64,000 nucleotides of DNA from Diphasiastrum complanatum (taxonomy: Eukaryota > Streptophyta > Lycopodiopsida > Lycopodiales > Lycopodiaceae), in the NCBI GenBank assembly GCA_029204225.1, contig CM055102.1, positions 24,955,390 through 25,019,389 on the forward strand, written 5' to 3'. The notes beneath the pieces were generated by a model, which did no database searches, was not told the DNA's origin, and saw nothing but the letters and a program-made list of their open reading frames with translations. Below are positions 2,645 through 39,529 of the stretch, in pieces. The position numbers and the translations under genes are program-made. The number at the start of each line of letters is the position of its first letter. Positions within the stretch are counted from its first letter, which is position 1.

Positions 2645-3443
2645 TAAAGACTGAAATGAGCTAAATCCTTGGTTTTCATTCAATTTGATCACAATTTTTG
2701 ATCTAAATCTTGTGTAGATTGGATCTTAGCATCTAGCATTGATTCTAGAACTCAAAGTGAGTCAAATACATTGGAGATTGGTGTTTTGTGACTTCATTTG
2801 CAGGTGTTTAGGTGTCTAAAACCAAAGGCAAAGTTGAACTCAATTCGTATTACCAAGATAGCAAGTTTTGCTTGCTCCAAGCATTGATTTCTAAGCGAGT
2901 TTTGGAGGTGATTTCATAGAGGAGGCTTTCTAGCATTCAAGGAGAGGGAAGATCAAAGTTTTGGGGACTCTTCAAGGCTGTTCTAAGGTGTAGAGGACAC
3001 CTCCTAAAGTGATTTAGATTCAATCCAACCATTGCTTGACTTATGCACCAAATTAGATCAATTTTTCATCAATTTTGATCAATTTTTTGCTTGTGATTGG
3101 ATAGTAGATTGTGTTGCATCCTCATTAAGTTCCACTTAGATCTTTTACAAGTGATTTTGGAAGTATATTAGGTTGCTGAAATTCACTCTTGATCAGATCA
3201 TTTGGAAGCTTTAATGTTCTTCATAGAAAGAGGGGCAATTCTACTAGTATTGTCTACTTCAATCAAGCAAGTGCATTGTTTCTAGTATTCTACGATTTGA
3301 TTTTGTTAGAGATCATTCTTAGATATTTATAGGAAGTTTATTACTAATATTTTTAGGTCCCTAAGAAGTGGGATAAGGTAGATCTTCAATCAAATCAATA
3401 GAAGTAACCTTCATTTGTGTCAAGTCCTTGATTAGGAGACTAG
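2645..3443 (+). other. Untranslated leader of copia element 1
   Basis: About 800 bp between primer site and gag start. There is no long open frame. It is AT-rich with several 'atcaattttgatc' type inverted motifs near 3057-3095 that could fold. It is probably a leader with packaging function, by position only. Confidence 0.5.
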
Positions 3444-4130
3444 ATGGCATCTATAAATGCATATCTTTTGGATACTAATGAAAGGCTCAACAAAACTAAC
3501 TATTCCATATGGAAAGTTAGAATGGAATCCATCATGATCATGCAAGATCTGATGAAAGTTGTAAATGGTAAGGAGGTTGAACCTATTCATCCTCAAGAAA
3601 AAGCCAAATACATCAAGAGGTGCAATGTTGCACTACATTGCATAAAAATGAATGCTACAAATGAACTCTTAAGAGATGTAGGAGATTGCACTTCGGCTCA
3701 AGATGCTTGGGAGACTTTGCAAAATGTCTATGAATCCAAGAACCAAACTAGAATGTTAGCTTTGAAGAATCAAATCTATAGAAACTATTAAAATAAAGGA
3801 GAGAGTGCACATACTTTTGTCCTAAGAGTAAAGGAATTGAACAAAGAGCTAGCCTTCATAGGTGATCCTATCAAGGATGAAGAGCTTGTTCAACTCATAT
3901 TGAATGGACTAAGCTTTGAATTTGACAATTTGGTTCAGGGATATGCAATTATGGGTAAGCTACCCATACTTGAAGAACTCCAAGGCACACTCATGGCCGA
4001 GGAATCAAGAAGGAGCCAAATGCAAGAGAGGATGGATAGGCTTTCCATCCAAGGTGGAGATGACCAAGCTCTCTTCACCAAAGGCAAAGGCAAGTCCAAA
4101 GGCAAAGGATCAACATTCAAGAAGTCTTGA
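3444..4130 (+). pseudogene. copia element 1 gag (UBN2-type), one internal stop
   Basis: The frame starts at an ATG (MASINAYLLDTNERLNKTNY) and continues with IWKVRMES and ALHCIKMNATNELLRDV, which are typical of the plant copia gag (retrotran_gag/UBN2) fold. A TAA at 3789-3791 interrupts it after the conserved ALKNQIYRNY segment, and the match continues in the same frame (HTFVLRVKELNKEL, LILNGLSFEFDNLV). A TGA at 4128-4130 follows a lysine-rich stretch. The zinc knuckle lies just downstream in the same frame. Confidence 0.88.
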
Positions 4131-4202
4131 AAGCTTGAGGATCAAGAAGGACCCTCAAAGGCATCTCCATCAACCACCAAAGTCAAGAAGGACAAATCAA
4201 AG

Positions 4203-5249
4203 GTGAAGTGCTACTATTGTAGCAAGATGGGGAATTATGCCTCAGAATGCTTCAAGAGGAAGCAAGATCAAAGTCAATCCAACATGAGCAAAGAGGAGGA
4301 GGAGGAGAGTTCACATGAGGACTCTCTCATGTTGTCCATATTTTCTTCAACAAGCTTCAAAGGAGAAGATCCTTGGTGGATTGACTCGGGTGCTAGTTCA
4401 CACATGACTAGTAAAAGGGAGTTTTTCTCTTCTCTCTTATCTTATGATGGACCTATAAAGTCTATCTATACAGCAAATGATGAAGCTTGTAAGATTGAAG
4501 GAGTTGGTAGCATTCCCCTTTGCTTAGGATCTTCCAAAAAGATCAACATAGAAGGTGTTTTGTACATTCCTACAATAACAAAGAATCTACTAAGTGTTGG
4601 CCAAATGGTAGACAATGGTTTCAATGTTGACTTTGCTCCAAATGAATGTTTCATCAAGAATAAGGGTAAGATAGTGGCTAAGGGCACTAGACTTGGCAAA
4701 CTTTATAAGTTGGATGCATTTGTGGATACTAATGTTGTCATGTTGGCCGAGAAGAGCAAGATATCTACCTTCACCAAGGAGGATCCATCTTCCACAAGAG
4801 GGATCATGCTTGGATATGCTAGCTCAAACAAGGGCTACAAAGTCTATCTCCCATCCTTGAACAAATTTGTTGTTTCAAGGGATGTTATCTTTGATGAACA
4901 TCATATGCATATGCTTGAAGAAGGCTCAAGTGCTCCAACAATCAAGAAGAAGATGGCCGAGGAGCAAGATCTTGGTTTTGAGGAGGATCTCATGGAGGAG
5001 CAAGCACCAAACCCACCTATCACACCAAGGAGATCTTCAAGGGAAAAAGTAGAGCCATCAAGGCTCATATATCAAGGCAAAGGACAACAAGTTGAGAGTA
5101 TCTCATCCACTTCTTATGCTTTATCTAGTTTTGAAGAACCATCTAATGTTGAAGATGCATTGAACTCCAAAGAATGGTATAAAGCTATGTTGGATGAGTA
5201 TGATGCCTTGATTGAGAATGAAACTTGGTTGCTTGTTGAGAGACCTTAA
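4203..5249 (+). pseudogene. copia element 1 zinc knuckle and protease, integrase core deleted
   Basis: This 348-codon stretch continues the gag frame. It opens with a zinc knuckle at 4209-4250, CYYCSKMGNYASEC; the normal histidine of CX2CX4HX4C is Asn here, so zinc binding is probably weakened. An acidic linker precedes the aspartic protease motif WWIDSGASSHMT (catalytic Asp codon 4383-4385). The usual YIPTITKNLLSVGQ segment follows. After KLYKLDAFVDTN the protein jumps within about 15 residues to TRGIMLGYASSNKGYKVY and FVVSRDVIFDE, which in full elements lies after the integrase. The HHCC zinc finger and DDE core, roughly 300 residues, are missing in frame. It ends at a TAA inside the segment leading into RT. 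Confidence 0.88.
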
Positions 5250-6071
5250 AGGAATGTAATAGGATGCAAGTGGATCTTCAAGCTTAAGTTGAATACAAAT
5301 GGGAGTGTTAACAAACATAAAGCAAGATTAGTTGAAAAAGGTTATGCTCAAGAGAGAGGGGTAGACTATGAGGAAACTTTTGCACCCATGGCCAAGATGG
5401 TCACAATAAGGCTAATCATTGCACTTGCATCACATTTTGGATGGATCATATGTCAAATGGATGTCTCTAATGCTTTCTTGAATGGTTTTTTGGAAGAAGA
5501 TATCTATATGGAGCAGCCACAAGGGTTCATCAAGCATGGAATGGAGAACAAAGTATGCCATCTCCAAAGAAGCATCTATGGCTTGAAGCAAGCCTCGAGA
5601 TCTTGGAATTCAAGACTACATTGCTATCTTATTTCACGTTCTTTTGTTCAAAGTGAATATGATACCACTCTTTACATTAAGTTTGATGATGTTGGTATCT
5701 TACTTTTACTCATTTATGTAGATGACATCATCATTAGTGAAAATAGTGTTGATGGTATTGAAAAAATCAAGATAGGTCTATCCTTAGAGTTCAAGATGGT
5801 AGATCTAGGGTGTCTTCACTTCATCATAGGCATAGAGGTACTTAGAGGGTCTGATTTTATCTTTATAAGTCAAGTAAACTATGCTCAAAGTCTTTTGAAG
5901 AAGTTTAAGATGGAAGTATGCAAAAGTGTTGACACACCAATGGAGCAAGATGTAAAAGTGCCAAATGAAGATGATGAAAGATCCTTCATGGACATCACTT
6001 TGTTTAGGCAACTTATAGGCTCCTTAATGTGGATCACTATAAATAGACCAGATCTTAGCTTTAGTAAGTAG
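5250..6071 (+). pseudogene. copia element 1 reverse transcriptase
   Basis: The frame continues directly past the TAA at 5247-5249 with [30 protein letters not shown] and [13 protein letters not shown], all hallmarks of copia RT (RVT_2). [19 protein letters not shown] holds the first catalytic Asp, and YVDD at 5715-5726 holds the catalytic pair. [15 protein letters not shown] near the end marks the RT-RNase H connection. A TAG at 6069-6071 together with a +1 shift ends this frame. The catalytic residues are all present. Confidence 0.9.
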
Positions 6072-6072
6072 G

Positions 6073-6675
6073 TTGAGCCAAACCATGCAAAAGCCGTTGA
6101 ATATCTATTGGAAAAAGGCTAAGAGGATTCTAAGATTCTCAGGTACATTGGATTTTGGGATTCTATATAGAGGAGATGTGATTAACCTTCATGCATTTAG
6201 TGATTCAGATTTTGCAGGGGACAAGAGGGATAGGAAATTAACAAGTTCCTATTCAACTTTCATAGGAGAAGGTGTGGTTTCATGGCTTTCAAAAAAGCAA
6301 GAAACTATATCTCTATCTTCAACCGAGGCCGAGTACAAAGCTTTGACAACCACTACAAAGGAGGTACTTTGGATCAAGAGATTATTGGTGGAGCTAAAGA
6401 TCATGGATTCAGAGGAGGCACCAATTATCTACATTGACAATATATCAGCCCAACATCTTGTATCTAACCCAATCTTCCATGCAAGATCTAAGCACATTGA
6501 GATATGCCATCACTTTGTGAGAGAAATGGTGCAAGCCAAGGAGGTTGCTTTGGAGCATGCTCCAAGCAATGAATGTGTAGCTGATTTACTTACTAAACCA
6601 CTTCAAAAGACACCTTTTATGAAGTTCAGATCATCACTTGGAGTAATTAGTAAAGCAACGATTGAACCAAGCTAG
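6073..6675 (+). pseudogene. copia element 1 RNase H
   Basis: The frame is +1 relative to RT. It contains KRILRFSGTLDFGI, then DSDFAGDKRDRKLTSSY (first catalytic Asp), SWLSKKQETISLSSTEAEYK (Glu), IDNISAQHLVSNP (Asp) and ARSKHIEICHHFVRE, the RNase H motifs of copia elements. It ends with CVADLLTKPLQKTPFMKFRS and LGV before a stop. The polypurine tract and 3' LTR follow directly. Confidence 0.9.
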
Positions 6676-6680
6676 ATAGT

Positions 6681-6689
6681 GAGGAGGAG
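6681..6689 (+). promoter_or_regulatory. Polypurine tract of copia element 1
   Basis: GAGGAGGAG directly precedes the TGTT start of the 3' LTR and is the expected plus-strand primer. The same GAGGAGGAG motif precedes the LTR of copia element 2. Confidence 0.75.
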
Positions 6690-7371
6690 TGTTAAAAATT
6701 CACAATTCTAGCTTGACTAGTTTTGGTCATATGACTTGTAAATAGTTAGATGGTCATGATGTGGCTTGTAACACGTGCCAAATAGCATAGGATTCCATTC
6801 ATAAGGATGTTCTCAAGTAGACCTAAGTGTTAGAACCTTTGGAATGAGTCCAAATTATGCTTAGATACAAGAGAGAAAAAATAGGAGCTATTTTTCATAA
6901 TTTTTGCATTGTTGAGGGATCTCCAAGATTCCAACCCTAACTTGGTAGGGATGAAAGATCCACCAAAATTAGCATTAGTGATAGGTTTAGGGCTACTCAT
7001 ACCTGCCCAAAACCATAATGGATCATGTATATATAGGTGATGATATCTCACCAAAATCAATCAAGCAATTTCATGATTTTTCTCTCATAATGGTGTAATT
7101 GCTCTCTATGTTCATAATTGTTTGAGTTCTTGTGATTACTAATGATTATAGGATTGAATGTAGGTCTGGTGTACAGTACTCAGACTGTGGGAGGCCATAC
7201 TTTCACACGTGTGAAGCCTTCTTCAAGGATTTGGGCCATTTAGTGAGGTTCAAGCATAGATTTTTGATGGATTTTGATGGTTCAACTTGTACTAATCTTA
7301 TGAGAACATAATCTATTGTTTCCCTCATCATTTCAAGTGTTTTAGGGTCCTTATTTGCTGTATTTTTCACA
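6690..7371 (+). repeat. 3' LTR of copia element 1 (682 bp)
   Basis: It starts TGTTAAAAATTCACA after the purine tract and ends TATTTTTCACA, the same end as the 5' remnant. A TATA box (tgtatatatagg, about 7026-7037) is the likely core promoter, so transcription would start near 7060. A CACACGTGTG palindrome lies near 7204-7213. Confidence 0.85.
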
Positions 7372-7790
7372 GCATTTGCTTTACAATTCTCGTTAATTGA
7401 TCTTTAACCTTGCAATTTCGATTAGGAAGATACAATATCAAACCAGATTTATCGAAGAAAAGAAAGAGAGAGTATTATTTTTGACTAAACAAAGCGTATA
7501 TTGAATTACATAAATGCCTGGGCAACAACCCTTTATATAGAGAGAGTGACAACAGTTGTGAACCGTTTCAACATGAAACGACATATCACATAAAGACACA
7601 TAGTCTAATAGTTCATACATTAGCTTACGGGCCATAGGGACTTTAATTGTTGCTGACATGGCTTATTGCTTCACACTGCCACTGGATCATGGATCTGTTC
7701 ATATTAGATCTTGATCACAATGAGATAATGTGCTTGCCTTCACATAATTTTACTCCTAATCACATGCTTCTCTTTCACAATATACAGAAA
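7372..7790. other. Unassigned AT-rich flank
   Basis: No recognisable gene. It holds a short GA-rich stretch and TATA-like 'tttatatagagagag'. It may be part of an old retroelement LTR on the minus strand but nothing confirms this. Confidence 0.3.
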
Positions 7791-8510
7791 ACGCATCTAC
7801 GAAACAATGACCGTCATGCACAGCCTTCAAAGAAAGCCTTCTTTCACATCAATGATATTATGATAGGCTTCAACGTTCAAATTAGCAAATGCTCAAACAG
7901 ATAGGAAGATATGTCACGTGTCACATAATAGGCAGCACTGATCACAACGATGAAAACCGTTATGAAATTCATTTCAAAAAGGTAAATTTTCTAGATATTT
8001 TTGTATGTGTTGAGATGTTGGACAAATCATATGCCTTTAATGTCATTGAAATGAACTCAATGACATTAGAAAGCAACAATTCTTTGATTTCATATTTGCA
8101 TATGTCATCTTAAAAACAATATTTGCCTACAATTAGCAAGACATGAAAGCGAACGCATCTACGAAACAATGACTGTCAGGCACAGCCTTCAAAGGAAGCC
8201 TTCTTTCACACCAATGATATTATGATAGGCTTCAACGTTCAAATTAGCAAATGCTCAAACAGATAGGAAGATATGTCATGTGTCACACAATAGGTAGCAC
8301 TAATCACTACAATGAAAACCGTTATGAAATTCATTTCAAAAAGGTAAATTTTCTAGATATTTTGTGTTGAGATGTTGGACAAATCATATGCCTTTAATGT
8401 CATTGAAATGAACTCAATGACATTAAAAAACAACAATTCTTTGATTGCATATTTGCATATGTCAGCTTCAAAACAATATTTGCCTACAATTAGCAAGACA
8501 TGAAAGCGAA
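7791..8510. repeat. Tandem duplication, 362-bp unit, two copies
   Basis: Two copies start at 7791 and 8153 with 'acgcatctacgaaacaatga' and run in register to 'agacatgaaagcgaa'. They differ by scattered substitutions and a small deletion near 8360. Each contains 'tcattgaaatgaactcaatga', a near-palindrome. Short frames inside are not conserved between copies, so this is non-coding. Confidence 0.9.
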
Positions 8511-9770
8511 AACAAAAAGCAACTTGAAATGGCAAGGAACTAACCTATCGATTGTTCTGATGCTTTTTAACACCTTCACATATTTAGCATTTACCACAAT
8601 GACACAAAGTACAAAAGAGTTATATCTAGTGAAGCATGTAACTCAAGCTGTTTGCAAAGAATGGTGGGTATCAATTGTTTCTCAAATCTCATATTAAAAG
8701 GTTGGCATATTCCATTTATAAAACTCGACTATTGATCAAGGTGTATGTTTTGCGTCAAAAGCATGAGCTCACTATTCTAGGTTTATAAATTACATCGAAG
8801 GAAAAGCACTATGCTTTTGGGATCTTTCTATTACGACGTAGCTCTTTGCTCCAATTTAAGTCTACACAGTTCCTACCCTTCATGTAGAGCAATGGAACTA
8901 GTGGCTTATACACTTTAGTGCCCTGCATGTAGGGCAATTTTCTATAATCATCAAGTAATCTCTACCATACTTTGAAATTCAATAAAATGATGGAACTATA
9001 TGAACATGCTTTTGCGCAACATCTATAACTCAATTATCAATATTGCATAAATTTGCTTGTCTTTTAAATTTATATTCAATTAGAATGGGGACAAAATAGC
9101 TAGTTAATACTTCCTCCAAATACGAGGATCAAAAACCTCTAGAGTAGCTAGCGCTCTCTATCTCTCATTCAAGTCTTTGTCCCTCTCTCTGTAGTATACA
9201 ATTGAATAAGCCTACAGACAGCCTGTGAGAAAACTTATATACATATATGTATATATATCTCAGCGTTTGACGATTAGTCGTACAAGAAAACTGTTATCAC
9301 TTTTGACTTCTGTCAAAAATAGTCAGCACCAACGGATCAAACGAATTGTTAATTTGTATGTTAGACTGGTGTGAACCACATGAAGAATTTTATGAAATCC
9401 TGTTATGTTCATAATTTGGCTATCCTGCATGATGAGCTACAAGATATGGACGAGCATCATCGACATCAACAACCACCATTACCTTCTAAATCCTCTTAGG
9501 AGGGTGATAATATAAGACGTGTATTGCAGATGATGAGCAACACAAATTGAGGCCTGTGATGCCACTCGTGGATTCGATTTCGCTTGGCAGGTTTGTGGGT
9601 TGTAAAGCATCGGGGGCAAGAGGTTTTGCGTGGTTGCAGTCTCAAATCATTGGACATGATTTAGAGATGCGTACCCCTTTTGAAAGACGGTTGCACACTT
9701 ACGTAGACCACACAGCCAGTGGCCGTAGCTTACTATTTGTTGAGCGTTTTATACTGGAAAGTGTTTTACC
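8511..9770. other. Gene-free stretch
   Basis: AT-rich with scattered short frames, no recognised domain, and a small TA-rich run (tatatacatatatgtatatatat near 9236-9257). Two neighbouring short motifs 'ccctTcatgtaGagcaat' and 'ccctgcatgtagggcaat' (8875-8938) suggest local duplication. Confidence 0.4.
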
Positions 9771-9916
9771 ATCTTACGGTATAGCTCTATCGCTAAGTAT
9801 TATTGTTGGTAGTTGAATCAATCTTACGGTATAGCTCTATCGCTAAGTACTATTGTTGGTAGTTGAATCAATCTTACGGTATAGCTCTATCGCTAAGTAC
9901 TATTGTTGGTAGTTGG
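9771..9916. repeat. 50-bp tandem repeat, about 2.9 copies
   Basis: Units start at 9771, 9821 and 9871 with 'atcttacggtatagctctat' and are nearly identical (one T/C difference between copies). The last copy lacks the final 'aatca'. The high identity points to recent expansion. Confidence 0.93.
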
Positions 9917-11335
9917 TGGTTACTACCTACCTAACTGTGATCAAGCTCCATTCGTAGCCCAGTCCGCAGCTTTCGAGAAAAGATCTCTTTGGTTACTTGC
10001 CAACTACTGCAATCAGAAATTCAATTCCAAAGTAACGGTTCAATTTCAAGTGCAACAGGTGCTGAAGCCAGTGGAGGAGCTACTAGAAACACGAAAGAAG
10101 GCAAGTAGAAGAAGTAGAGCTTTATCGAAGATGAAAGAGAGACATAGTCAAAACTTTATTCGATTGGTCAAAATATTGTGCTATGACCACAAACTAAAAA
10201 ATTCTTTTGATCGCAGCTGGCAATTTAGGCAGGTGGAATATCTTGATTGCTTGCAAACTTGGTCGGCATGAGAGCTAAGATGTTGAATGCATGCGTTGAA
10301 GTATATTCTACTGTTCTCTAGAAAGATGTGTTACTGCTAATAAACTACCACGTTCGATCACTTTCATTCTTTCCAGAAGAAGATTTGCAGTTGTTTTATG
10401 ATTTGCAATTCAATTGTTGAACCTTGCTACATAAGAAACGCAATCCTAAAAATCAATATGCAAACTGGCAGAAGAAAAAAGATCACCAACTAAAAAAATT
10501 TACGTATTGTGGGAAGAATTTCGTGTTGATTTGGTACAAAAAAATAGATAGCACGAAGGCTTAAAGGCACTGGAAAAGAAATGCTCTCATTGATGAAAAT
10601 CCGGTCTACTCACAAGCAGAGGAAGGTTTCTGATAAGTTACGATCAACTACAACCGTTGGAAGAAGCCAACACTAATCACGGCCAAGATGAGACTTGCTG
10701 CTGAGTAGTGCGCAGCACGAGTGCGTTCTCTCCAGCTACTGGATGTTTTTTACAAGTCTGGAGCTTTTCTGTAGCTGTTGCCTCGATTTTTCTTATGGGC
10801 ACACGAAACCAACAACGATCTTGGGATTATGAAGAACCGGTCTACTCAGAAGGATATGGATACTCAGAAGGATATGAAGCTTTCAGATACTTGAGGTCAG
10901 CTACAAGCGTTGGAAGTCATAGGCAAGAATAGCACGCTTGGCAAGTCATTGTAACCAATATGGCGAAGAACATCTAGCTGCCACCACAAATAGCGCAGTA
11001 GCACACGTCAGTAGATGTGCTTTACAAACGTTCACTGGGTTTGCACACCAGAGGTTCAGTAGCATGTCAGTAGCGCCGCCGCCATCAGATTAACTCCTTG
11101 CATATCCAATTCCTCCCACACCTACATTTCATGACCATCGATTGACTGCACATCTGAGGCACATCTGAGGTTCACAATATGCAACATGCCTAGTTGACAC
11201 TCCTCATGCAATGATTCTCCTATAATCATGCCCACCACAAGTGTCTCACGCTCTTCAATCACTTAACTGCTTGAAACCCAATGACATCGACAATTGCAGC
11301 CTTCAAAGCTACACTCCAAGCTTCTCTAATTGCTT
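9917..11335. other. Gene-free stretch with dispersed repeats
   Basis: A 122-codon frame at 9903-10271 has no recognised domain and biased basic composition; I do not call it a gene. 'ccggtctactca' blocks recur at 10599 and 10838, with an 18-bp tandem repeat at about 10849-10884. The block 10975-11200 resembles 14820-15190 and is a dispersed repeat. Confidence 0.4.
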
Positions 11336-11340
11336 GGCCC

Positions 11341-11686
11341 TGTTGGTGTCAAGCAAAACAAGAGATGTGTTTGCTGACGTCAACAATCTGCCTTCCCCAC
11401 ATTTCCTATGTGGCGATCCCAAGTAGTCGTTTCTTGGCATGTAGGCGCTCCTCCTTTTCCTATAAAGGAGAGGCACATAGAGGATTACCACAATCAATCC
11501 AAACAGTAGAACTAGCTTTGTATTCTCATATGTTTTACATTCTATGTGAATCTTTGTTTTAGCAACGTTCTTGTTGTTCTATCTCTTTGCAATTGGATGG
11601 ATATAATGTAGGAAGTCATTAGCCTTTACTATTCTAGCTTTCTCTGTCTGCGCTCCCTTGGTTTCTAGCACTGATCTTCTCATATA
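11341..11686. repeat. 5' LTR of TRIM-like element
   Basis: Aligns along its length with 12418-12740. It lacks the terminal 'atccaaca' present in the other copy, and the sequence changes abruptly after 'ttctcatata'. Confidence 0.85.
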
Positions 11687-12417
11687 CCTCTCTCTGAGAT
11701 CCATGTCTCTCTCTACGTTGCAGGTGCCTGTGATGCAACAGATTCTATTGGCCTCTCTCTCAATGCATCTGTCATGCCAACGCTCTCTCCAGCCAACGCT
11801 CTCTCCAGCCAACGCTCTCTCGAACGTGCTCTTGCTCAACTCCTCTCTCTGATGTTCACGTTCTCTTCTGTAGCTGATGCAATGAGTTCTATCAGAGCTC
11901 CATTTCCTTGAACTGTGAATATCAAATTGCAGCAGAAGCGTGGAAGGAAGATGGCAGCTGGATCAAAGCTTAATCATAAAAGAAGGCAACGGTCAGGAGC
12001 AAACCGAGGATCATTATCTTGAAGAAACCAAATTGGATCACAAACTACTTCAAGCCAAAGACAACTGAATAATTGGATTGGTCTTCAATTGACAATTCTG
12101 TACATGAAAGATTGGTAACCGAGATCTGGCATCTTCAGTAAACATCTACATCAGCACTCATCAGAGCATTCAAGTTTTGAATGTGAAATTGATCTTCTAT
12201 AGCTTCAAATTCGTGTTAATGCATGATAATTGCACTTTATGTAAAGGGTGGACTTGTACGCAAAGGGCATGCAATATGCATGTATAGGGTGTGCAAGACA
12301 TATACATGGGGCATAAAGGGGCACAAAAGATCATGAGAGACACTTAGGTGAATCATAAGAAGCATTTGATGGTCATATAATTCTATTTGTAATAGATGTT
12401 TTGCTTGTGGGAGGGAT

Positions 12418-25800: not shown

Positions 25801-28399
25801 AGAATTAAGCTAGTTAATTCCTCTGGTTTCTTGAGGCACTTAAATATCCTCAATTTATTGTTTTGCGAAGTTTCTTAATAAAACCTTTTTTTTTTCTCTA
25901 CTTGACTCTGATGTTGGCTGCCAAAATAATAGTTTCTTCACCAATGCGTTGATACTACCGGAAGTGAATGGACCGACTGAAGGCCTTCTACTGATTTCTT
26001 CAGCTCATTTTTTCACCGCTATTGTTGGTATGTTCTTGCATCTAAAATGATTGGAGAGAGTCTCTTTAATAAAATTCTGAATGCTAAGATGAATGAGCTA
26101 ACACTTTTTTATTAAAACTATCAACAATATAGACAGCATTAGGAAATGTGCTTATATCTGTGAAAATATCAGTTTATAGCATGTGAGAGGATTATATGTG
26201 CGAAGTAGTCTGTGGTGCTATCTTGCTTCAAAGTGAAGGTTTTGTAGGTTCAGATGGTAAGTTTAGGTGCTACTTGTATGCTTCCTCAGATTTCAGAATA
26301 GTCAACTTCCAAACTTGAAAATGCTTACATCCTTGTTTCTAGTGTATATCATAAGAGTGTGAGCATAAAAAAAGCATGCTAACCTGAAAAGTATTTGCTA
26401 GGAGAGATGGATTAGAGTAACCCTCTACAGTAAATAGAAATAGCGACATGTGAGATGATGATGATACATGGATTTGTGGAATATACCAAGGCAAAATCGA
26501 TATTGCTACGCAACTCAGTAAATGTAGACATGCTTAGCCTTCTTATTGTACTTACCTGTAGAGAGTTAGTCCACGATCCAGTACTTAGTTGCAAACCTAG
26601 TCCTTTGTTTGGAAATAACTGGTCAGGCTGATAGAAAAGTAGGTGTGTCTCACACACACACACAGATATTTATATGTGTGTGTGTGTGTGTGGACCCAAA
26701 TGTTTTTTTTTGCCACAGTTGCTCGTCAGTTTTTAGAAATTCTCTCTGAAGAGAAGGTGATACAGCTTTTCTAGTTGTATGCTATATTCAACATACAACC
26801 TTGTTTCTCTCGTTCACGAAAGTAGACCAGTCTTGTTTAGAAATGCAGATTCTTATGGTGTCAAGGTTTCAAGTCTCTTGTAAATGGTTGGGTTGCATGG
26901 TTTGTGTTTGAGAGACTGCAGGGAGATGAAATATGGCCCCTCCCAAGAGTCAACATGCTTCCGGGTGCCTTAATTCTTGGACCACTATACCATTTTGCAG
27001 TGCCAACACAAATGCATGTGTTCCATTTAGGGCTTTGCAATTTAAACTGTTATGAGGTGCCATATTTGGACTTGAAAGCTGTGCAGGTCCTGGCTTCTGC
27101 AGGGGCTAGATGGTGGACAAAAAGTGTCAAAGAGGCCATTTGCTGGAAGGATTTTCCATCAATTATTGCAGGTAAATGCATCAGTTGCAGGGGTCTTTTC
27201 AGCAATGTGTGCCTTTGGAGCCACAATAAGATGCACATTTATTTCTCTGTTGTACTCATTTCATCACACAAGCTCTGCTTTTTCTTGGTTGTACTTGTAT
27301 TTATCCATATCATTGTCAAAATTCAATTAAGTTAGCATATCTGTTTGTATTTTGTTTTTTTTCAGTGAATGTTGCACTCATGGCGCATGTCATTGACATC
27401 TATATTTAGTTGTGAGTTTTATGAGCTCTATACCACAAGCGATTTGTAAGTTCACATGGCTTCCTAGAATATGGTCATCGTCTAGAGATGGAAGCTGATA
27501 TTGCAACTTCAGTCAATGTATTGCCAATGAGGAAGTTAGTGAGGAGTCCATCTTCAGCATTTCATGCAGCTTAGCTATTATGGAGATATGAATGGTGGAA
27601 ACATGGCTTCAGAGCATGTGGGGGATCTAGATAAGAAGTTGATACTGAAAAGCTCAGCCAATATACTGAATTATAGTTGCTCTATCATGACCTGCATCGG
27701 CAGGCAGATGTAGAGACACGGTCTGCGTGACGCCACAGGGGATCAGCTCGACACTGAAATAGAGGGGAGGAGGGAGATGATGAGCTGTTGGGGGCTGGAG
27801 AGGCATTTGGTCCTGGTTACGAGGAGGAGTTGATGTAGGAGGGGGATACAGAGGTAGAGGGTGAGGGTGAGGGTGGGGGGTGGGCATACAACATTTATTC
27901 GTAGACCACGGTGCCGAGACACGGGAGGAGCCAGCCATTCTTGCACTTGGGCGTCGAGACCTAGAAGCTCCAGGGGGGGAGTGGGCTGGGGGCATTGTTT
28001 GTAGAGGACTGGAGTATCATAGGCAGTTGAGGGCCAGGTCGACCTTGAGTTTATAGGGCCTTCCCTATAACAGTTGAGAGGGCGACCTAGGGGTAGCAGT
28101 GGAGTAGTAGTAGTTGGAGCTAGCTCGGAAGAGGGGGGTGGAGGGAGAGGGAGAGGTAGGGGATACGTCGGAGGCAGAGGTGGAGGCGGAGGCGGAGGCA
28201 GAGGGTCACCACGATGGATGACACCCTCAGCATCATCTGTTGACTCCCTATTTGGCAGTTCCCCAGACTTTGATGATTCCGACTATGAGTTATAGAGGAT
28301 GAGTTTTAGTTGTATAGTGTTTACGAGAAATTTTTATATTGTTTATCAGACATCACTATAATCCATTGCGGTGCCTTGAGCTCGACATTATATAGTCAT

Positions 28400-28442
<43 letters not shown>

Positions 28443-31400
28443 AGGGAGAGGGAGGGAGTATCAGGAATGCGCGTCCGCGTCCGGCGTCTGACACCCAAAC
28501 GCGTCCTCGGACGTGTTCATATATATATATATATATATATATAGTTTTTTTAACTCTAAAAAAAAAAAAAAAAAAGCGGACGCGTCCGGGGACCCGGATG
28601 CACCCCTGGCGCGTCTGCGTCCGGGGTCCGCCATGTTAGATATATATATATATACAATCCAGGGATGCGCGTTCGGGCCGGACGCGGGCAATCCGCGTCC
28701 CCGTCCGGCGTCCGGACCCGGACGAGCTGCCTCCTGGTTAGCCCGACGTCTGGCCGCCCTTTCCCTGACCATGATGAGCTGCCGTCGTGTGAAATTCATT
28801 CCGATCTGCTCATCCAGATCCAGCTCGACAGCGGGGACAGGACCCACAGCGGGGGCGGGTGGCTCCGGTTCCGGATTTCTCTGTCGAGTTTGTCGCAGCA
28901 TCTCTCAAATATCTGCCTCTTGCTTCCGATGCCTCTCGTTGTGCCTTCGGATATCTTCCTCAAGCTTCCTCCTGGCTTCGCACTCGGGCTTCGGTGGTAT
29001 GCGCTCTGCCATCTCGATCGACCTTCTCCTCACAGCACCCTGGTCCTTGAACACCCTCTCACAGCACCCAGGCTCTCAAACAGCCTGTCCACGGTGAGGG
29101 GAGACCAGTTCTGGAGGGATGCACAGACATTGTCAGGACTGCTTCGACCACTCTACATTGTGCTCCGCATGGCTGACAGCGAGGGGTCGACACTTGGACT
29201 GGTGTATGAGCTCATGGACCGGATTGGACAGTTCTTGCAGCTGCCCATCTTGCAGCCAGAGAGGTAAGCGGTACAGTGTTGCAATTGACCTTTATCTTTT
29301 CAGTACTTGCTAGTTTGTCTTTCTGTCAATGTTAAGCATTTTCGTAATGCCCTAAACCACATGCCCCTCACCTGCAGGATGACAGAGCTGAAGTTCATAT
29401 GGGAAACGCGGAGGAACTACTCCACAGGAGTATCCACAGCGTTGCACACATGCCGCATCCCCTCTTCCTCTCTCCGACACAAATCGCAGACAGGGAGCTC
29501 GAGTCCGATTGGCTTCAGTACATTCACAGGGTGGGTCCACACATAGGTTTGGATCCTATCAGGCTCATGGAGGAGCTCGCTGCATTTCGTTTCGGCATGG
29601 GCACATTCGGCCACCCGGCTGCCCAGGATCCAGAGAGGAGGCAGCTACCCATTACCTGGTGGACCATGTTCGGTAGCACATACCCATCTATACAGCGTCT
29701 TGCACTGCGTGTCCTTTCTTAGGTATGCATCTCATTTTATCCTCCATTTTTGTGTTTCGTTGAAGTTCCACCTCTGCCACAATGTGCTGAAGTATTTCAA
29801 TGCACGCACCACAGGACTGTGCTGCCTCCATGTGTGAGCGTAATTGGAGCACATGGGCACTCATTCACACGAGGAGAAGAAACCGGTTGTCAGTGAGTCA
29901 GTTGGAGCGGTTGGTGTTCTGTAGCACCAACGCACGTCTAGGAGGCTTCCGACCATTACGAGCGCATTGCAGGTGATAAGCTAATCTTTTATAGCATGTT
30001 GGTTGACTCCTGGTATGTTGGTTTCATTTCTTGATAAAGTTGTCTCTCTGACATGCAAATTTTAAACCTTGCAGACGAAGATATCAGATTTGGAGCGCCA
30101 GGTTGACTTGCCTACGGACAGCACCCATCCCATGCCTGCAGATGACCTGGGCACACAGTTGATGGCAGAGAGAGAGAGAGAGCTTGCCGAGATGAGAGAG
30201 AGAGAGCTTGGGCTTGAGCACAGAGAGCCCCCATTGTATGAGGCAGATGAGCCAGTGTCAGAGGATGAGCATGATGAGGATGAGCCCATTCGGGTTGTGT
30301 TTGCCAGACCGGAGAGGGATGAGGCAGATTATACAGGTGCAGGGCACACGCCATGGGCAGGGGTTACAGTTGCATCACGTGGCAGAGGTGGGACACATGG
30401 CACAGGTTATACCGGCAGACAGGCAGGGCACACAGGAGGGGGCAGTGGCATACCTACCTATGTCGACATGATGGAGGAGGCTCTTGATAGAGGGCAGAGT
30501 GGTTTAGATGCCGGTCCCGCAGATGTTTGGATGCGTGCAGCACAGAGTCATGGCCGTTACTACGACAGCACACGAGAGGAGGCACCTGATGACTTTCATT
30601 GCACAGATTGGGAGGCCATGCAGGGTCTACAGGGTGCACATGATGAGGCACGGGATGAGGCTTGGGTTGATTCAGGGTTTGGTGCACAGGATGATTCAGA
30701 GGTTGGTGCACAGGATGATTTAGAGGCTGGTGCACAGGATGAGTCCCAGAGCCCAGAGCATTTGTATTCGGATGCCCAGCTGGCCGACTTGGTTGCCACA
30801 TTGGATTCAGAGGCCCAGCAGATGCCGAGTGTCAGGGCGCCCCCATCATCTCTTGCCAGCATGCCATACACAGAGTCCCAGCCAGAGCAGCCGCATGAGG
30901 TGCCTACAGTTCCTCCAGCTCCTCAGAGGGTGTATGTGCGTCGCACAGCTCCTCCAGTGCCACCGATGCCATTTAGGCTTGCAGCCCCTCCATCGTCGTC
31001 CACTTCTACAGCACCAGGTCTCCATGGCAGGCCACCATCTGTGCCCAGGTTTTCTCTTGCAGCGCCCACATCCACAGTGGCTCCTCCAGTGGCAGCACCC
31101 ACGTCACATCCTCCTAATTTGGCAGCACCCAGGATGTACCAGTACCGGCCACCACAGCGCCCCTTTCAGTACATATCGCCATTGTACTCGCCTCCTGCAC
31201 AGCCAGTTCCTCCACCTGAAGCAGCTCCACGGGCACACATGTCGCTTTGTACATGTGATGCTTTATTTTATGTCGAATTCTATGTGCGTGTGTGAATCCT
31301 ATTTTCATTTAATTTCGTTTGAAGTGAATGCTACCTTCACATATATGCACCTACATCATGAGCACAGCAATCACCCCTACACCCCAAACGACATTTCATA

Positions 31401-34400
31401 AACACATGTAATACATCTGCATTTAAAAAAATTACAGACATTGCATCTTACATGACCAGGCTCGCGTTGCACAAAAAACAACTATGTATATATTCAACCG
31501 TTGTATCAAGATAACATCACATATACCGTCATTTTTTTAAGCAGCCATCTAGTTATTTGCTGCACCATAAATTGCCGAAAACTACATAGCAACAGTCCGC
31601 CACATACGGCTGGACCTTATCTATTCTAAACATCCCTCACTGATCCTCCACCGACTCCTCGCCCTCGTCTGGTGCATTGTTTTGTCGCTCTTGCTCTGCC
31701 TCGCGGTTAGCCCGAGCTGCCTCCTAGTTAGCCCGTCGTCTGGCCGCCCTTTCCCTGACCATGATGAGCTGCCGTCGTGTGAAATTCATTCCGATCTGCT
31801 CATCCAGATCCAGCTCGACAGCGGGGATAGGACCCACAGCGGGGGCGGGTGGCTCCGGTTCCGGATTTCTCTGTCGAGTTTGTCGCAGCATCTCTCGGAT
31901 ATCTGCCTCTTGCTTCCGATGTCTTTCGTTGTGCCTTCGGATATCTTCCTCAAGCTTCCTCCTAGCTTCGCCCTCGGGCTTCGGTGGTATGCGCTCTGCC
32001 ATCTCGATCGACCTTCTCCTCACAGCACCCTGGTCCTTGAACACCCTCTCACAACACCCTGGCTCTCAAACAGCCTGTCACCGGGCTCTCAAACAGCCTG
32101 TCACCGGCTCTCGCTTGCTCTCTCACTGTCTATCACTAGCTCTCTCACAGCCTCTAAAAATGCCGACCACAATGGCATTGTGAGTGCCTATTTATCCCCA
32201 CAGCCTGATCGGCCATGTGGATCCCCATCATCCCTCCATGTGCCTCTGTACCTGCCCCCATGTGATGCTCCCCCCTGTGTTGGTCTCCCATTGGGCCCGT
32301 GGTCTGCTCACCCACAATGCCCATGTGCCTCTGTACTCTGTCCATGTGATGCTACCCCCCTGTGTTGGTCTCCCATTGGCCCCTCGGTCTGCTGACTTGC
32401 AGTGCCCATGTGCCACTGCAACAGTCCCTTGCATCATGTACTGTACCCTCTTTTTTTACACCCTAAACCCCCTTTGTTTCCTTTTTTTTGTCCTTTTTTT
32501 GGTAGTTAATATGCAAAAATTAAATATTAAAAATATTAAAAAATAAAAAAAATATTAAAAATGGTACCACCCTGGTACCGCGGATCCCAGGGCGGTACCG
32601 TACCGGCGGTACCACTGATATGGTACCAGCGGTACCACGAGGTACTATGATATATACATATACATATACATATATATATACATATACATATACATCATAG
32701 GTACCGCGGTACCATGATGGTACCGCGGTACCACAATATAATAATATATTTATTATTTAATATTTTTTTTAATTTTTTTTTACCTAAACCTACCCGCCCC
32801 CCTCGCATTTCCTCTGAAATTTTTTTGAGCCCTCTCCGCCCTGCCATCGCTGCTGGTTTTTCTTGCCTGCCTTTGATTCCTTGCGTCGCCCATCGCCCAC
32901 GCAACGCCCTGCCTTGCATCTGATTTCCTTTGCCCTACATTCGCCCATTTTCAGCGTCTCTCCAACAGTGAACCCTGCTGTTTTTTTTCCAGCAATCCAC
33001 CCATTCCGGTGGATCCTGTCCCACTGCGTCCGCCAGTTGCCACTGTGGTTCCACCACCACCTACTGTTGCTCGCACTCCCCCAGTTTACGACTTTCTCAT
33101 GGACTCTCCGCCTCCCGAGCAGGAGCAGGCCCCAGATGCCAGTGACGAGGCCTTCCAGGATGTTGAGGAGATCCCTTCCTCCCTCCCTTCACATCCGGAT
33201 GACCACCCTACCCAGCAGTTTTTGTATCCCATGCCAGATGTCCACCCTCCACCAGTGTACCCCACTTATGCTGCTGCACCCATCCCGGCCAGTGCATCCC
33301 ACTCTCCCCATTCCACGTCTACAGCTGATGCATCCACTAGTGCCCAGGCTGTCGCGTCATCATCCATTCCCGTCACGTTTGGTGCACCGTGCTGGACGCC
33401 CGCTACCCGTCGCCCAGCTGGGAGAGTTCTTAGGCAGCAGAGCATTCGCGGCGCGCATCAGCCGCACATGGATAGAGAGGCCACACAGGCCGTGGCCAGC
33501 CTGATTTATGAGCTGAACCTTCCATTTGCCATCACCGACTCCGAGCCCTTCAGAAGGACCTTCCGCCTTGCAGAGTCTGTCAGCCCTAGCTGGAGAGTCC
33601 CTAGTTCAGAGGTTGTCCGCACACACATGCTGAGGGATAGGGTCGAGTCACTGTCTAGAGAGATGGAGCCTCTACGTCGCCACTGGGCCACTTACGGTTG
33701 CAGCATCATGTCCGATGGCTGGACTGATGTCAGGAGGAGGCCGATCCTCAACATACTGGTTCCAGCTGCATGGGCACACAGTTTTTGAGGGCAGTGGATT
33801 GCAGCAGGGGGAGGAGAGTCATATCTGCAGAGTTCATGTTTGATGTCATCAGGTCTTCCATCCTGTCCATAGGCCCACAGCATGTCGTCACAGTGGTGAC
33901 GGACAATGCCACGAACTGCATTCAGATGGGTGTACTGCTAGAGGCGGAATTCCCTCACATTGTTCATACCCCCTGTGTCGCGCACGGCATAGACCTTCTG
34001 ATGGGGGACATAGGTGCACTTCCCTGGGTTAGAGCCATCGTCCGTGAGGCCCTCTTCTTGGTGACTTTTGTCACGAGGAAGAGGCCTGTTCTTGCCATGT
34101 TCCGGGTGTTCAGCCATCTAGACCTCCGTAAGCCAGCCCCCACACGCTTTGCATTCGACTTGGTGGTCATCGACCGTCTGATCAGGTGCAGGGCGCAGCT
34201 TCTACAGATGGTTGCCAGTGATCTTTGGTGTGCCAATACATTTCCGCGCACTGAGGATGGGGAGCACTTTTCTTCCACGGTGAGGGGAGACCAGTTTTGG
34301 AGGGATGCACAGACATTGTCAGGACTGCTTCAACCACTTTACATTGTGCTCCGCATGGCTGACAGCAAGGGGTCGACACTTGGACTGGTATATGAGCTCA

Positions 34401-37400
34401 TGGACCGGATTGGATAGTTCCTGCAGCTGCCCATCATGCAGCCAGAGAGGTAAGCGGTACAGTGTTGTAATTGTTCTTTATCTTTTCAGTGTTTGCTAGT
34501 TTGTTTTTCTGTCGATGTTATGTTTTTTCGTAATGCCCTAAACCACATGCCTCTCACCTGCAGATGACAGAGCTGAAGTTCATCTGGGAGACGCGGTGGA
34601 ACTACTTCCATAGGAGTATCCACAGCGTTGCACACATGTTGCATCCCCTCTTCCTCTCTCCGACACAGATCACAGACAGGGAGCTCGAGGCCAATTGGCT
34701 TCAGTACATTCACAGGGTGGCTCCACACATGGGTTTGGATCCTATCAGGCTCATGGAGGAGCTCGCTGCATTTCGTTTCGGCATGGGCACATTCGGCCAC
34801 CCGGCTGCTCAGGATCCAGAGAGGAGGCAGCTACCCATTACCTGGTGGACCATGTTCGGTAGCACATACCCATCTATACAGCGTCTTGCACTGCGTGTCC
34901 TTTCTCAGGTATGCATCTCATTTTATCCTCCATTGTTGTGTTTCGTTGAAGACAATGTGCTGAAGTATTTCAATCCACGCACCCTAGGATTGTGCTGCCT
35001 CCGTGTGTGAGCGTAATTGGAGCACATGGGCACTCATTCACACGAGGAGAAGAAACCGGTTGTCAGTGAGTCAGTTGGAGCGGTTGGTGTTCTGTAGCAC
35101 CAACGCACGTCTCGCCAGGAGACTTCCGACCATTACGAGCGCATTGCAGGTGATAAGCTAACCTTTCATAGCATGTTGGTTGACTCCTGGTATGTTGGTT
35201 TCATTTCTTGATAGAGTTGTTTCTCTGACATGCCAATTTTAAACCTTGCAGACGAAGATATCCGATTTGGGGCGCCAGGTTGACTTGCCTACGGACAGCA
35301 CCCATCCCATGCCTGCAGATGACCTGGGCACACAGTTGATGTCAGAGAGAGAGAGGGAGCTTGCCGAGATGAGAGAGAGAGAGAGCTTGGGCTTGAGCAC
35401 CGAGAGCCCCCATTGTACGAGGCAGATGAGCCAGTGTCAGAGGATGATCAGGATGAGGATGAGCCTATTCGGGTTGTGTTCGCCAGATCAGAGCGGGATG
35501 AGGCATATGATACAGGTGTTGGGCACACGCCTAGAGCAGGGGTCAGAGGTGCATCACGTGGTAGAGGTGGGACACATGCCACAGATTATACCGGGAGACG
35601 GGCAGGGCACACAGGGGGGGCCAGTGGCATACCTTCTTATGTTGATATGATGGAGGAGGCTCTTGATAACGGGCAGACTGATTTGGGTTTACCTTCCGCA
35701 GCTGCTTGGATGCGTGCATCATAGAGCCATAGGCATTTCTATGACAGCACACCAGAGGAGTCACCAAATGACTTTGATTGTACCGATTGGGAGGCCATGC
35801 CGGGTCCGCATGGTGCACAGGATGAGGCACGGGATGTTCCCGATAATGGTGCTCATGATGAGTCCCAGAGCCCAGACCATTTGTATTTGGATGCCCAGCT
35901 GGACGACTTGATTGCAGACTTGGATTCAGAGGCCCAGCAGATGCCGAGTGTCAGGGCACCCCCATCCTCTCTAGCCAGCATGCCCTACACAGAGTCTCAG
36001 CCAGAGCAGCTACACGAGGTGCCTGCAGTTCCTCCAGTTCCTCAGAGGGTGTATGTGCGCCGCACAGCACCTCCAGTGCCACCGATATCGTTGAGGCCTG
36101 CAGCCCCTTCATCGCCATCCACTTTTGCAGCAGCAGGTCTCCATGGCAGGCCACCATCTGTGCCCAGATCTTCTCTTGCAGCACCCACATCTATAGACGA
36201 TCCTCCAGTGGCAGCACCCACGGCACATCCTCCTCCATTGGCAGCACTCACGCCACCGGCTCCTCCTTTGGCAGCACCCACAGCACATCCTCCTCCTTTG
36301 GCAGCACCTAGGATGTACCAGTACCGTCCACCACAGCGCCCCTTTCAGTACTTATCGCCGCTGTACTTGCCTCCTACAGGGACGGCCCCTCCACATCTAG
36401 TTCCTCCACCAGCAGCAGGCCCACGGGCACACACTCCTCGGACCTATCCTCCACTATCAGCTGCACAGGGACACCCATCTTTGGCTACTCTATCCCAGCC
36501 GGCCGCAGCTTGGGCTCAGCCTAGTCAGCCAGGTGATCTGCATGGGGGTGATGAGGCATTGACGGCTCCCCTCGTCCGCAAGAGGCCAGGAAGACCCAAG
36601 GGTGCACCGAACAAGAAAGGCAGGGCACAGAAACTGCCAGGGAAGAGAGGACGACCTCGCAGGGCTCCAGTTGCTGGTAGAGGTGCTGTATTATAGCCAG
36701 CTGCAGCAGGTGTTGTTGGTTTAGCCTGCTTGGGGGCTGATGCGGAGGCAGATTGGGAGGATGAGGATGACGAGTCTTCCCCCTCGGATACACAGCCCAT
36801 GCCAGTACCAGATAGACATAGATATCAGTTGCAAGAGTCAGCTCGGGGCCCTGAGTTGTCTCCGGAGCATTCATCTGAGTTTGAGGCAGAGCATTGATTG
36901 TAGCTCCGTCATTTTATTTTTAGCAGTTTGATATCATGTTCCATGTTTGGCGGCCAGATGGTCGAACGTTGTATTCAGACCAACCTTCATATTATATTTG
37001 GTGTTGGACGTATTCTATTCACTGCACAATGTGTATTTGTCAATTTGTAATTGTGATGTTCTACTTGCAGTTTTACTTCAAATGGTGTGTGCGTGTTTTC
37101 ACTTAGTTTTTAGTACAGAGTTTGAGAGCATATGCAGAACACAGAAATACAACCCCCCTGATGGCATTTCATAATCACATACATCAGATTGCAATACACA
37201 AGGCACGCATTGCACAAAAAACACACCGTACATTAATTCAACAGATGTATCAAAACTACAATACGTATTCCCGCCGCATACGGCTGGGGCTGTTCTTTAC
37301 ACCATGCCAGACACTAAATACTGCCTCATCTACTGATGAACATTAAATAACAACAGTCAGCCACATACGGCTAGACCCCATCTATGCTAAACATTTCTAC

Positions 37401-39529
37401 GGATCCTCCACAGACTCCTCGCCCTCGTCAGGTGCATTGTTCTGTCGCTCTCGCTCTGCCTCCCAGTTAGCCCGAGCTACCTCCTAGTCAGCCTGACGGC
37501 GGGCAGCCCTTTCCCTGACCATGATGAGCTGTCGTCGTGTGAAGTTCATTCCGATCTGCTCATCCAAATCCAGCTCGACAGCGGGGGCGGGGGCTACAGC
37601 GGGGGCGGGGATCTGCAGCTCTGGGTGTCTCTGCCGAGTCTCTCGCAGCATCTCTGCAATGTCTGCTTCTTGCTTCCGATGCCTTTCATTGTGCCTTCGG
37701 ACATCTTCCTCGAGCTTCCTCCTGGCTTCGCCCTCCGCCATCTCACGACACCCTGTTGCTCGAAATGACCCTCACAGCCTCTCACAGCCTCTCAATGGCT
37801 CTCACTGGCTCTCTCACAGCCCCCCTCTCACAGCCTCTCACTCGGTCTGTCACACAACCTCTCACAATGCCTCTCTCTCACAGCCTCCCACTGGCTCTCC
37901 CTCACAGCTTCTCACAATGCCTCTCACCCCCTCTCACTGGCTCTCTACTTGTCTCGTGAGTGCCTATTTAACCCCACAGTCTGTTTCCCAATTTGCTTTT
38001 GTTGATGATCCCATGTGCTACTGTACCTGCCCCATGTGCTGATCCCCCACATGCTGCACTGCGATTGGGTCCATGGTCTGCTCCTCCACAGTGCCCATGT
38101 GACGGTGTACCTGTCCGGATGTATTGCTCCCCCACATGCTGCACTCCGATTGGGTCCATGGTCTGCTCCTCCACAGTGCCCATGTGCTACTGTACCTGCC
38201 CCATGTATTGCTCCCCCACATGCCGCACTCCGATTGGGTCTGCTCTCCCACCGTGCCCCCAGTACAGTCCCCCTGTACAGTAACATCTTAGTTTTTAACC
38301 TAGTTTTAGCCTGTTAAAAGGGCTTTTTTTTTTTTTAAATAATAAAAAATATTATTTTTGTGGTGCCGCCCTGGTACCGCTGGTCTGAGGGTGGCACCAT
38401 AACCGCGGTACCACCATTATGGTACCGCGGTACCATAATGGCGGTACCACGTGCCACTATGATCTATATTAACAGGCATGAGGGTTCGGGCCAGAATGCC
38501 GCGTCCACGTCCGCGTCCGGACACGTCCGACCCCCAGACGCGGGGTCGGACGCGTCCAATTTTTTTTTTTTTTAACCTAAATAACTATACAAAAATTAAA
38601 TAAAAAAAAACGGAAGCGTCTAGACCCCCGGACGCACCCCTGGTCCGTATTTTTTAAAAAAAAATAAATTTAAGTCTAAATTTTTTTTAAAAAATTAAAA
38701 AAAAAAAAAACTGGACGCGTTCGGGGACGCAGACGCACCCTTGGCACGTCCGCGTCCAGACGCGGACGCAAATGCGGGTTCGCGTCCGGGTCCCGCTCCC
38801 TTAGATCTATAATAATATCAGGGATGCGCGTCCGGGCCGGACGCGGGCAATCAGCGGCGTCCGTACCCAGACGTGTCCGAACCTTGGATGCGTCCACATT
38901 TTTTAATTTTTTTTTTTTTGATTTTTTTAACACAAAAAAAAGCGGACGCGTTTGGACCCCCGGACGCACCCCTGGCGCGTCCGCGTCCGGACGCACGTTC
39001 GCGTCCGGGGTCCGCTACCTTAGATCTATATATATGGCAGCGATTATAGAATCCTGATTCCCGAATCGCAAATGAGCCGCCAAATTGGTTTTGCAAATAC
39101 ATTTGGTATCAGTAGAAAGAAAACACAGAGGACTAACAGTAAATGCATCTATGGTTTATCTGTGTACTATAATATACTGATTTGGACCTATAATATGCGT
39201 TTCTTTAGTTTCAGGTTCAATTTCGGTATGTAATAGGTCCAATTCTAGTACATTTCATGTCCCAAAAAAATTTGGGTGATGCTGCAACAAATCACGATAC
39301 CCTGCGAATCAGGATTCCCCCCGTTCCGGAACGCGTCCTGGAACACGAATTCCAATTTAATTTTTTCAAACTTTTTTATGCATTGCAAAAGCAAGATTTT
39401 GTTTAGGACTAGATGTTCCTGAATCACTAAACCACTGGTTCATAATGTGCTGATTAACTGATTCACTGGTAAAGGTCAACAATGAAATTATCAAGGTTTG
39501 GGAATATCAACATCGGTGAATTGGATTGT

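Follow-up and report, generated by a model that had tools for sequence, protein, structure and literature searches.

A hAT transposon family of Diphasiastrum complanatum with a probable second, convergent gene under purifying selection

Transposons of the hAT superfamily are usually described as single-gene elements, and the second proteins of other, two-gene transposons have been proposed to be helpers of transposition. One two-gene layout is that of MuDR, the maize Mutator element, which has two convergently transcribed genes, mudrA for the transposase and mudrB of unknown function, and terminal inverted repeats (TIRs) of about 215 bp (PMC3440606). Autonomous PIF/Harbinger and PHIS elements also have two open reading frames (ORFs), one for the transposase and a second one with a Myb/SANT (or YqaJ) domain, and PIF/Harbinger elements produce a 3-bp TWA target duplication (PMC4482050). 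Among hAT elements, MarorhAT-10 of the fungus Marasmius combines DUF659 with a dimerization region (PMC9674265). We describe a hAT family in which a DUF659-type transposase gene is faced by a small second frame, ORF2, on the opposite strand. It was found in a stretch of 64,000 nucleotides (hereafter, the window) of Diphasiastrum complanatum (GenBank GCA_029204225.1, contig CM055102.1; G000:C11:24955390-25019389 in our numbering), within an assembly of 1.74 Gb. The window holds two hAT units, arranged head to tail.

The data are best read, and with good support, as a hAT family that has a second gene, convergent and under selection. The preliminary description of the window, made from its letters, had proposed that a plus-strand DUF659/hAT transposase faces an unrelated minus-strand frame, and this arrangement was found again. 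DUF659 was matched on the plus strand in two pieces (E values of 1.6e-11 and 1.5e-21; 44.5 and 77.1 bits), the unspliced piece 34564-35010 gave a weak match to the hAT dimerization domain (18.7 bits, below the cut-off of 21.4), and the opposing frame runs from 37741. For a related copy, L042, four exons were predicted, which join into a frame of 1149 residues up to a stop in that copy. This spliced model reaches 138.8 bits for DUF659 (PF04937, cut-off 34.7) and 34.3 bits for the hAT dimerization domain (PF05699, cut-off 21.4); these are its only matches above Pfam cut-offs, a Mutator-type transposase not being among them. The 5´ part of full copies carries a C-x2-C...H motif (VRCRYCLVEFAASLTRLKGHL) that matched no Pfam BED model and that may be BED-like, and the GRP motifs of the transposase tail are presumably of the AT-hook kind, hence our term AT-hook-like.

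Six longer loci from the same genome (L041-L046) were used to define the fuller unit. Subfamily A (L044-L046) is 96-97% identical to unit 2 of the window from position 303 of that unit onward and has a longer 5´ end with the C-x2-C...H motif, and subfamily B (L041-L043), with a transposase open frame of 672 residues, matches unit 2 at 86-92% identity in the gene regions. The family ends read CATAG...CTATG, and inverted matches of 22-26 nucleotides at 92-95% identity between them make up short TIRs. A perfect 8-bp target duplication, ATTCACAC, is present on both sides of L044 and is the single informative case; L041, L042, L045 and L046 lie in (AT)n tracts, where an 8-bp duplication is uninformative. 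ATATATAT follows 23 of 37 right ends by manual reading and 19 by the stricter rule of a script; some loci give two ends, and one element is present as both L013 and L046. This frequent location in (AT)n microsatellites suggests a target preference. GGTACC occurs nine times (A) and 13 times (B) in the terminal 2x200 bp, the maxima of 300 shuffles being 3 and 2, with roughly the outermost dozen bases of the left end missing from the A stretch. Ends of the form CATAG...GGTACC with 8-bp duplications had been anticipated in the preliminary description; the CATAG...CTATG ends, the clustered GGTACC and the duplication around L044 bear this out, whereas no clean duplication flanks unit 2 (ATATACAT versus ATCTATAT at its two sides). 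The DUF659 core, dimerization domain, short TIRs and 8-bp duplication are, on sequence grounds, those of a hAT element, and both window units belong to this large family.

A very young age is suggested for subfamily B, in that one identical protein of 121 residues is encoded by all of the best 150 among its 3748 ORF2 candidates, and in that about 100 of the 150 top transposase copies have equal scores. Between L046 and L042, the transposase introns are 92-99% identical and the intergenic DNA 65%. Given this intron identity, subfamilies A and B have exchanged sequence at the transposase introns, which points to recombination or conversion and is in line with the chimeric unit 2. Next to ORF2 lie tandem repeats with 85-bp, 50-bp and 10-12-bp units, in a stretch 61-69% identical between A and B.

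Next, we examined how regularly ORF2 accompanies the transposase gene. Searches with the ORF2 protein gave 3399 first-look candidates for type A and 3748 for type B, the best 150 being scored in each case; the transposase search gave 12392, of which the best 150 were scored, 88 of them with an open frame of 660-673 residues. For 50 of these 88 near-complete copies, the ORF2 lists contain a partner on the opposite strand, 2.8-4.8 kb downstream. Among the remaining 38, 37 were read as 1-kb stretches, 29 of which contain ORF2 (28 of B type, one of A type) and eight do not, the 38th being L041; in 20 of the 29 recovered ORF2s, the frame is full-length or shortened by an in-frame deletion. In total, 79 of the 88 copies carry ORF2 at the expected convergent place. 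Nine lack it there; in two of these (C21:11859874 and C1:80879519), an ORF2 lies at about 2.1 kb downstream instead. Left out of this count were the other 62 of the 150 transposase copies, 17 of 690-723 residues and 45 of other lengths, for which a listed ORF2 partner was found in 4 and 16 cases, respectively. Orientation among the best 150 is strongly skewed, 73 pairs within 6 kb being convergent, seven same-strand and two divergent, and 52 of 57 B-type pairs share one spacing.

Best-150 lists favour well-preserved copies, and a census with degenerate patterns was therefore added. The pattern for an 11-residue core of ORF2 (which tolerates Ser in place of Arg and Phe in place of Leu, the exact peptide being read at each of the 100 places listed) had 1335 matches and a slightly wide pattern for an 11-residue core of the transposase 1356, and both reversed patterns had none. 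On contig C1, which was fully covered, 34 of 66 transposase cores and 34 of 78 ORF2 cores stand in convergent pairs within 6 kb, besides four divergent and 14 same-strand pairs. Random placement yields a mean of 0.145 convergent pairs and a maximum of 2 in 1000 trials.

Some of the unpaired cores are accounted for by deletion derivatives and fragments. Twenty of the 85 B-type ORF2 copies without a listed transposase were sampled, and element sequence was present at the expected place in 19; in L117 and L125 it is the 5´ end region, as in shortened elements. A sample of 20 from the 135 A-type copies without a listed partner showed element sequence there in 11, two of them (L144 and L146) having sequence from the ORF2 end. 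The deletion derivatives L052-L054 (C514:19014; C5:32130795 and 32133916) join element positions 97-1361 to 5018-6210, with most of the transposase gene lost and ORF2 intact. On C5, three ORF2 copies were seen in tandem, about 3.1 kb apart.

Four more distant DUF659 loci (L047-L050), whose alignable part is 37-55% identical to transposase exon 1, gave a best ORF2 match with an E value of 0.78, that is, none. The nearest of them, L049 (C16:8263900-8271399), holds a gene for a DUF659 protein 55% identical to the transposase over 331 residues, with a zinc-finger-like start, a dimerization-like exon and an AT-hook-like tail. It has no minus-strand frame of more than 65 residues beyond position 4900 and no recognizable ORF2 or ends, and its flanks share one 11-bp low-complexity inverted match only. 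Possibly, L049 is a domesticated host gene or a member of an older family.

Comparison of ORF2 between subfamilies revealed a signature of protein-level constraint. We aligned 93 ORF2 sequences, grouped them into A1 (50), A2 (5), A3 (2, so that its "consensus" represents two copies) and B (36), and compared the group consensuses; subfamily C is represented by one copy (L152), obtained with a query for a different Gly codon. A1 and B differ by 22 synonymous changes over 79.7 sites and by 15 nonsynonymous ones over 262.3, a ratio of nonsynonymous to synonymous rates (dN/dS) of 0.17 (Fisher p 5.5e-7). The ratio is 0.14-0.25 for all pairs among A1, A2, A3 and B, and 0.23-0.33 for C against the others; for transposase exon 1, single A and B copies give 0.19-0.21 (0.20). 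Control frames stand at 0.95-2.5 for A1 versus B, with 0.29 in the antisense frame that shares its third positions with ORF2, and at 1.06-1.85 (A2-B) and 1.35-3.17 (A3-B), with 0.36 and 0.30 in the mirror frame. From VELDLDEQ on, dN/dS is 0.07-0.28, and 0.14-0.38 in the N-terminal part, which has the higher dN in nine of ten pairs (all but A1-A3) and mostly higher dS, too. Between L046 and L042, ORF2 is 87% identical, as against the 65% of the intergenic stretch and 69% of the ORF2 leader. Exchange between A and B was considered as a source of ORF2 conservation and is an unlikely cause, since its dS of 0.34 approaches flank divergence. Indel lengths were not used as evidence, the codon alignment being protein-guided, with gaps of 1 and 8 nucleotides in one nucleotide alignment. 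Judged by these codon comparisons, purifying selection acts on ORF2 with about the same strength as on transposase exon 1, across several subfamilies up to the young near-identical group. The preliminary description had named two outcomes that would speak against a partnership, many intact transposase units that never carry ORF2 and an ORF2 that evolves neutrally and occurs independently of the transposase. Neither was encountered, as shown by the 79 of 88 copies, the dN/dS of 0.14-0.33 and the 34 convergent pairs on C1.

The ORF2 protein has 114-121 residues, about 17% of them Arg and about 17% Glu, and consists of a charged N-terminal half, a Pro/Ala linker, a nearly invariant basic core (27 residues) and an acidic tail. 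For a 46-residue core of the B form, the computed isoelectric point (pI) is 9.2. We consider it rather probable that the family consists of two-gene hAT DNA transposons whose ORF2 product serves in trans as an accessory factor for transposition. Such a role, already put forward in the preliminary description, gains support from pairing and selection, and the role itself is what we infer from them. An accessory factor for the ends or the transposase is suggested by selection on a small second protein, by its start near the right end beside the 85-bp repeats and by the palindromic ends. According to this model, ORF2 would be a gene in its own right, with one exon and with its expression driven from the right end of the element. 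The basic core of the protein would bind nucleic acid, the GGTACC/CCGCGG palindromes of the two ends or the 85-bp repeats by the ORF2 start being possible sites; alternatively, it might bind the transposase. Acting in trans, the protein would then help transposition. More tentatively, and with less than even confidence, we propose that the two-gene layout seen in MuDR and Harbinger arose independently in a hAT lineage, and that ORF2 founds a new family of small accessory proteins that would be required for hAT transposition here and underlie the recent spread to more than 1000 copies.

Several observations weigh against an accessory role or limit the evidence for it. The pI of the whole ORF2 protein is acidic (5.4), which weakens a plain DNA-binding view. 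ORF2 (20 members) matched no Pfam family at E<=1, hence neither Myb/SANT nor DUF1985/DUF287, and no PDB sequence at E<=10; one weak Pfam hit of a window piece, to DUF4726 (E 0.19), did not recur. On C1, 32 of 66 transposase cores and 44 of 78 ORF2 cores have no convergent partner core within 6 kb, and because of these 32 cores, ORF2 is evidently not needed in cis by every copy. L041 retains a long transposase frame with most of its ORF2 deleted, and where the transposase would be expected, nine of the 20 sampled A-type ORF2 copies without a listed partner show no element sequence. Sampling is biased, the lists being the best 150 of 3399-12392 candidates. ORF2 copies compared with their own consensus give 0.19-0.48, a biased range in that most A loci were picked as best protein matches, and the control frames of the close pair A1-A2 (eight changes) spread over 0.28-2.45 and say little. 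Finally, the computed results would look alike for a transposition helper, an anti-silencing factor and a repressor.

The second of these, an anti-silencing factor, appears unlikely to us. ORF2 would then resemble VANC of Arabidopsis VANDAL elements, binding the non-coding repeats of the element in trans, stripping host silencing marks and permitting high copy number. High copy number with many near-identical copies is what such a factor would allow, and the strongly diverged tandem repeats adjoining ORF2 recall the targets of VANC, which are fast-diverging non-coding tandem repeats (PMC10398659). ORF2 is, however, only about 120 residues long, without a Pfam match and hence without one to the DUF1985/DUF287 of VANC, and its core is nearly invariant across subfamilies, whereas VANC is described as far less conserved than the transposase (PMC5735166). 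Still less can be said for ORF2 as a repressor or copy-number control, a role in which it would pair with the transposase or occupy the ends and thereby reduce transposition; we regard this as improbable. Self-repression is hard to square with a young group whose 150 top-scoring copies share one and the same intact ORF2. The intact ORF2 of the deletion derivatives L052-L054, the observation that recommends a repressor along with the highly charged and, by composition, probably helical nature of the protein, may have been kept merely because these derivatives keep the right end.

Mutator-like elements capture host gene fragments (PMC6446971), and ORF2 might accordingly be a passenger, a captured host gene or fragment with no role in the life cycle of the element. 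Its dN/dS between subfamilies, about that of transposase exon 1, makes this highly doubtful, as does a core pattern with a different Gly codon, which matched five places, the two that were read being C-like and B-like element copies. That ORF2 is no gene, just a chance open frame in a GC-rich region where several antisense frames are open by chance or a stretch conserved for a DNA or RNA reason, is extremely improbable: for A1 versus B, no frame other than that of ORF2 and its third-position mirror shows a predominance of synonymous changes, a chance frame was rejected by dN/dS and frame controls, and positions 28000-39500 of the window gave no Rfam match at gathering cut-offs. A viral origin was considered as well; 94 stretches of viral contigs matched a pattern, none of which was confirmed.

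Features of the window are listed in Table 1. The guanine and cytosine (GC) content is 53-54% over 28001-38000, 45% in the boundary block and 32-43% elsewhere in the window. Both copies are defective. Unit 2 has a frameshift and stops in the transposase gene; its first 300 bp are of B type (99% identical to L042) and the remainder is subfamily A, for which reason it is devoid of the zinc-finger-like 5´ part. Unit 1 begins with an ORF2 fragment joined to the transposase gene at its middle, after which the unit continues through ORF2 to the right end; it is not whole, part of the transposase 3´ end being gone. It also has 85-bp spaced repeats, at 32236-32434, and a 46-bp AT-rich repeat (32650-32695) separates its right end from unit 2. 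A unit with matching ends and a pair recurring head to tail had been claimed; the ends of unit 2 and the second ORF2/transposase set stand, and unit 1 proved to be rearranged. The ORF2 region occurs three times, at 28723, 31713 and 37473, the second being 97% and the third 79% identical to the first over 300 nucleotides. As described before, the central block is unchanged, a stretch of 28 residues being identical in all three copies. An in-frame stop interrupts ORF2 in both fuller copies.

Table 1. Positions of transposon features in the window
Feature	Position	Strand	Remarks
Unit 2	32696..38461		More complete element, from CATAGGTACC at 32696 to CACTATG at 38461; subfamily A body with subfamily B left end (chimeric)
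Unit 1	28723..32649		Rearranged, left-truncated copy; ORF2 of subfamily B type; right end GGTACTATG at 32649
ORF2 of unit 2	37397..37741	-	Subfamily A1 type; starts at 37741 and runs toward the transposase; stop at 37484-37486, reading beyond it reaches ...EESVEDP at 37397
ORF2 of unit 1	31637..32002	-	Subfamily B type; in-frame stop at 31724-31726
ORF2 fragment	28723..29089	-	97% identical to 31713-32079; fused to middle of transposase gene
Transposase exon 1 (DUF659)	33009..34449	+	Frame shifted near 33770; 5´ zinc-finger-like part missing; donor GTAAGC at 34450; splice model predicted from L042
Transposase exon 2 (predicted)	34564..34908	+	First part of hAT dimerization domain
Transposase exon 3 (predicted)	34988..35149	+	Remainder of hAT dimerization domain
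Transposase exon 4 (predicted)	35252..36696	+	Pro-rich tail with AT-hook-like GRP motifs; early stop here, related copies continue to the place matching 36897
85-bp tandem repeat, 2.7 copies	38010..38240		Upstream of ORF2; candidate promoter or binding-site block
Left terminal GGTACC repeats	32696..32736		Inverted match to right end, 92-95%
Right terminal GGTACC/CCGCGG palindromic repeats	38402..38462		

GC-rich repeats with GCGTCCGG-type words and A/T runs recur at 28470-28720 and 38490-39030, outside both units on either side, and presumably represent another repeat family. Elsewhere in the genome, one transposase copy (G000:C7:27971422-27972063) sits in an open frame reported as 3915 residues long, the usual length being 672.

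Among the matches listed in a full-text literature search, outside which lie most subscription journals and Repbase, there was no two-gene hAT element. A conserved second gene would mean that the hAT superfamily, too, gave rise to proteins of the helper or anti-silencing kind. With more than 1000 copies, many of them near identical, and natural versions with and without ORF2, the role of ORF2 is directly testable, and its nearly invariant core of about 26 residues is a clear target for mutagenesis.

How does this family relate to the described systems? With VANDAL of Arabidopsis (VANA/VANB/VANC), it has in common an extra gene beside the transposase and tandem repeats in non-coding parts; it differs in its hAT-type transposase and in an ORF2 devoid of a VANC-type domain. 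PIF/Harbinger and PHIS elements likewise combine a transposase with a second ORF, but the ORF2 described here has no Myb/SANT domain, and the target duplication (L044) is of 8 bp instead of the 3-bp TWA of PIF/Harbinger. The convergent second gene of unknown function is shared with MuDR, a common layout that is no proof of membership: the transposase belongs to a different superfamily, and the inverted matches of the ends span 22-26 nucleotides, in contrast to MuDR TIRs of about 215 bp. With hAT elements (Ac/Tam3/hobo), and with their DUF659 branch in particular, the family shares the DUF659 core, the dimerization domain, short TIRs and the 8-bp duplication. What sets it apart from other hAT elements is a second, convergent, selected frame, a predicted transposase of more than 1100 residues with a Pro-rich, AT-hook-like tail, and its frequent position in (AT)n tracts.

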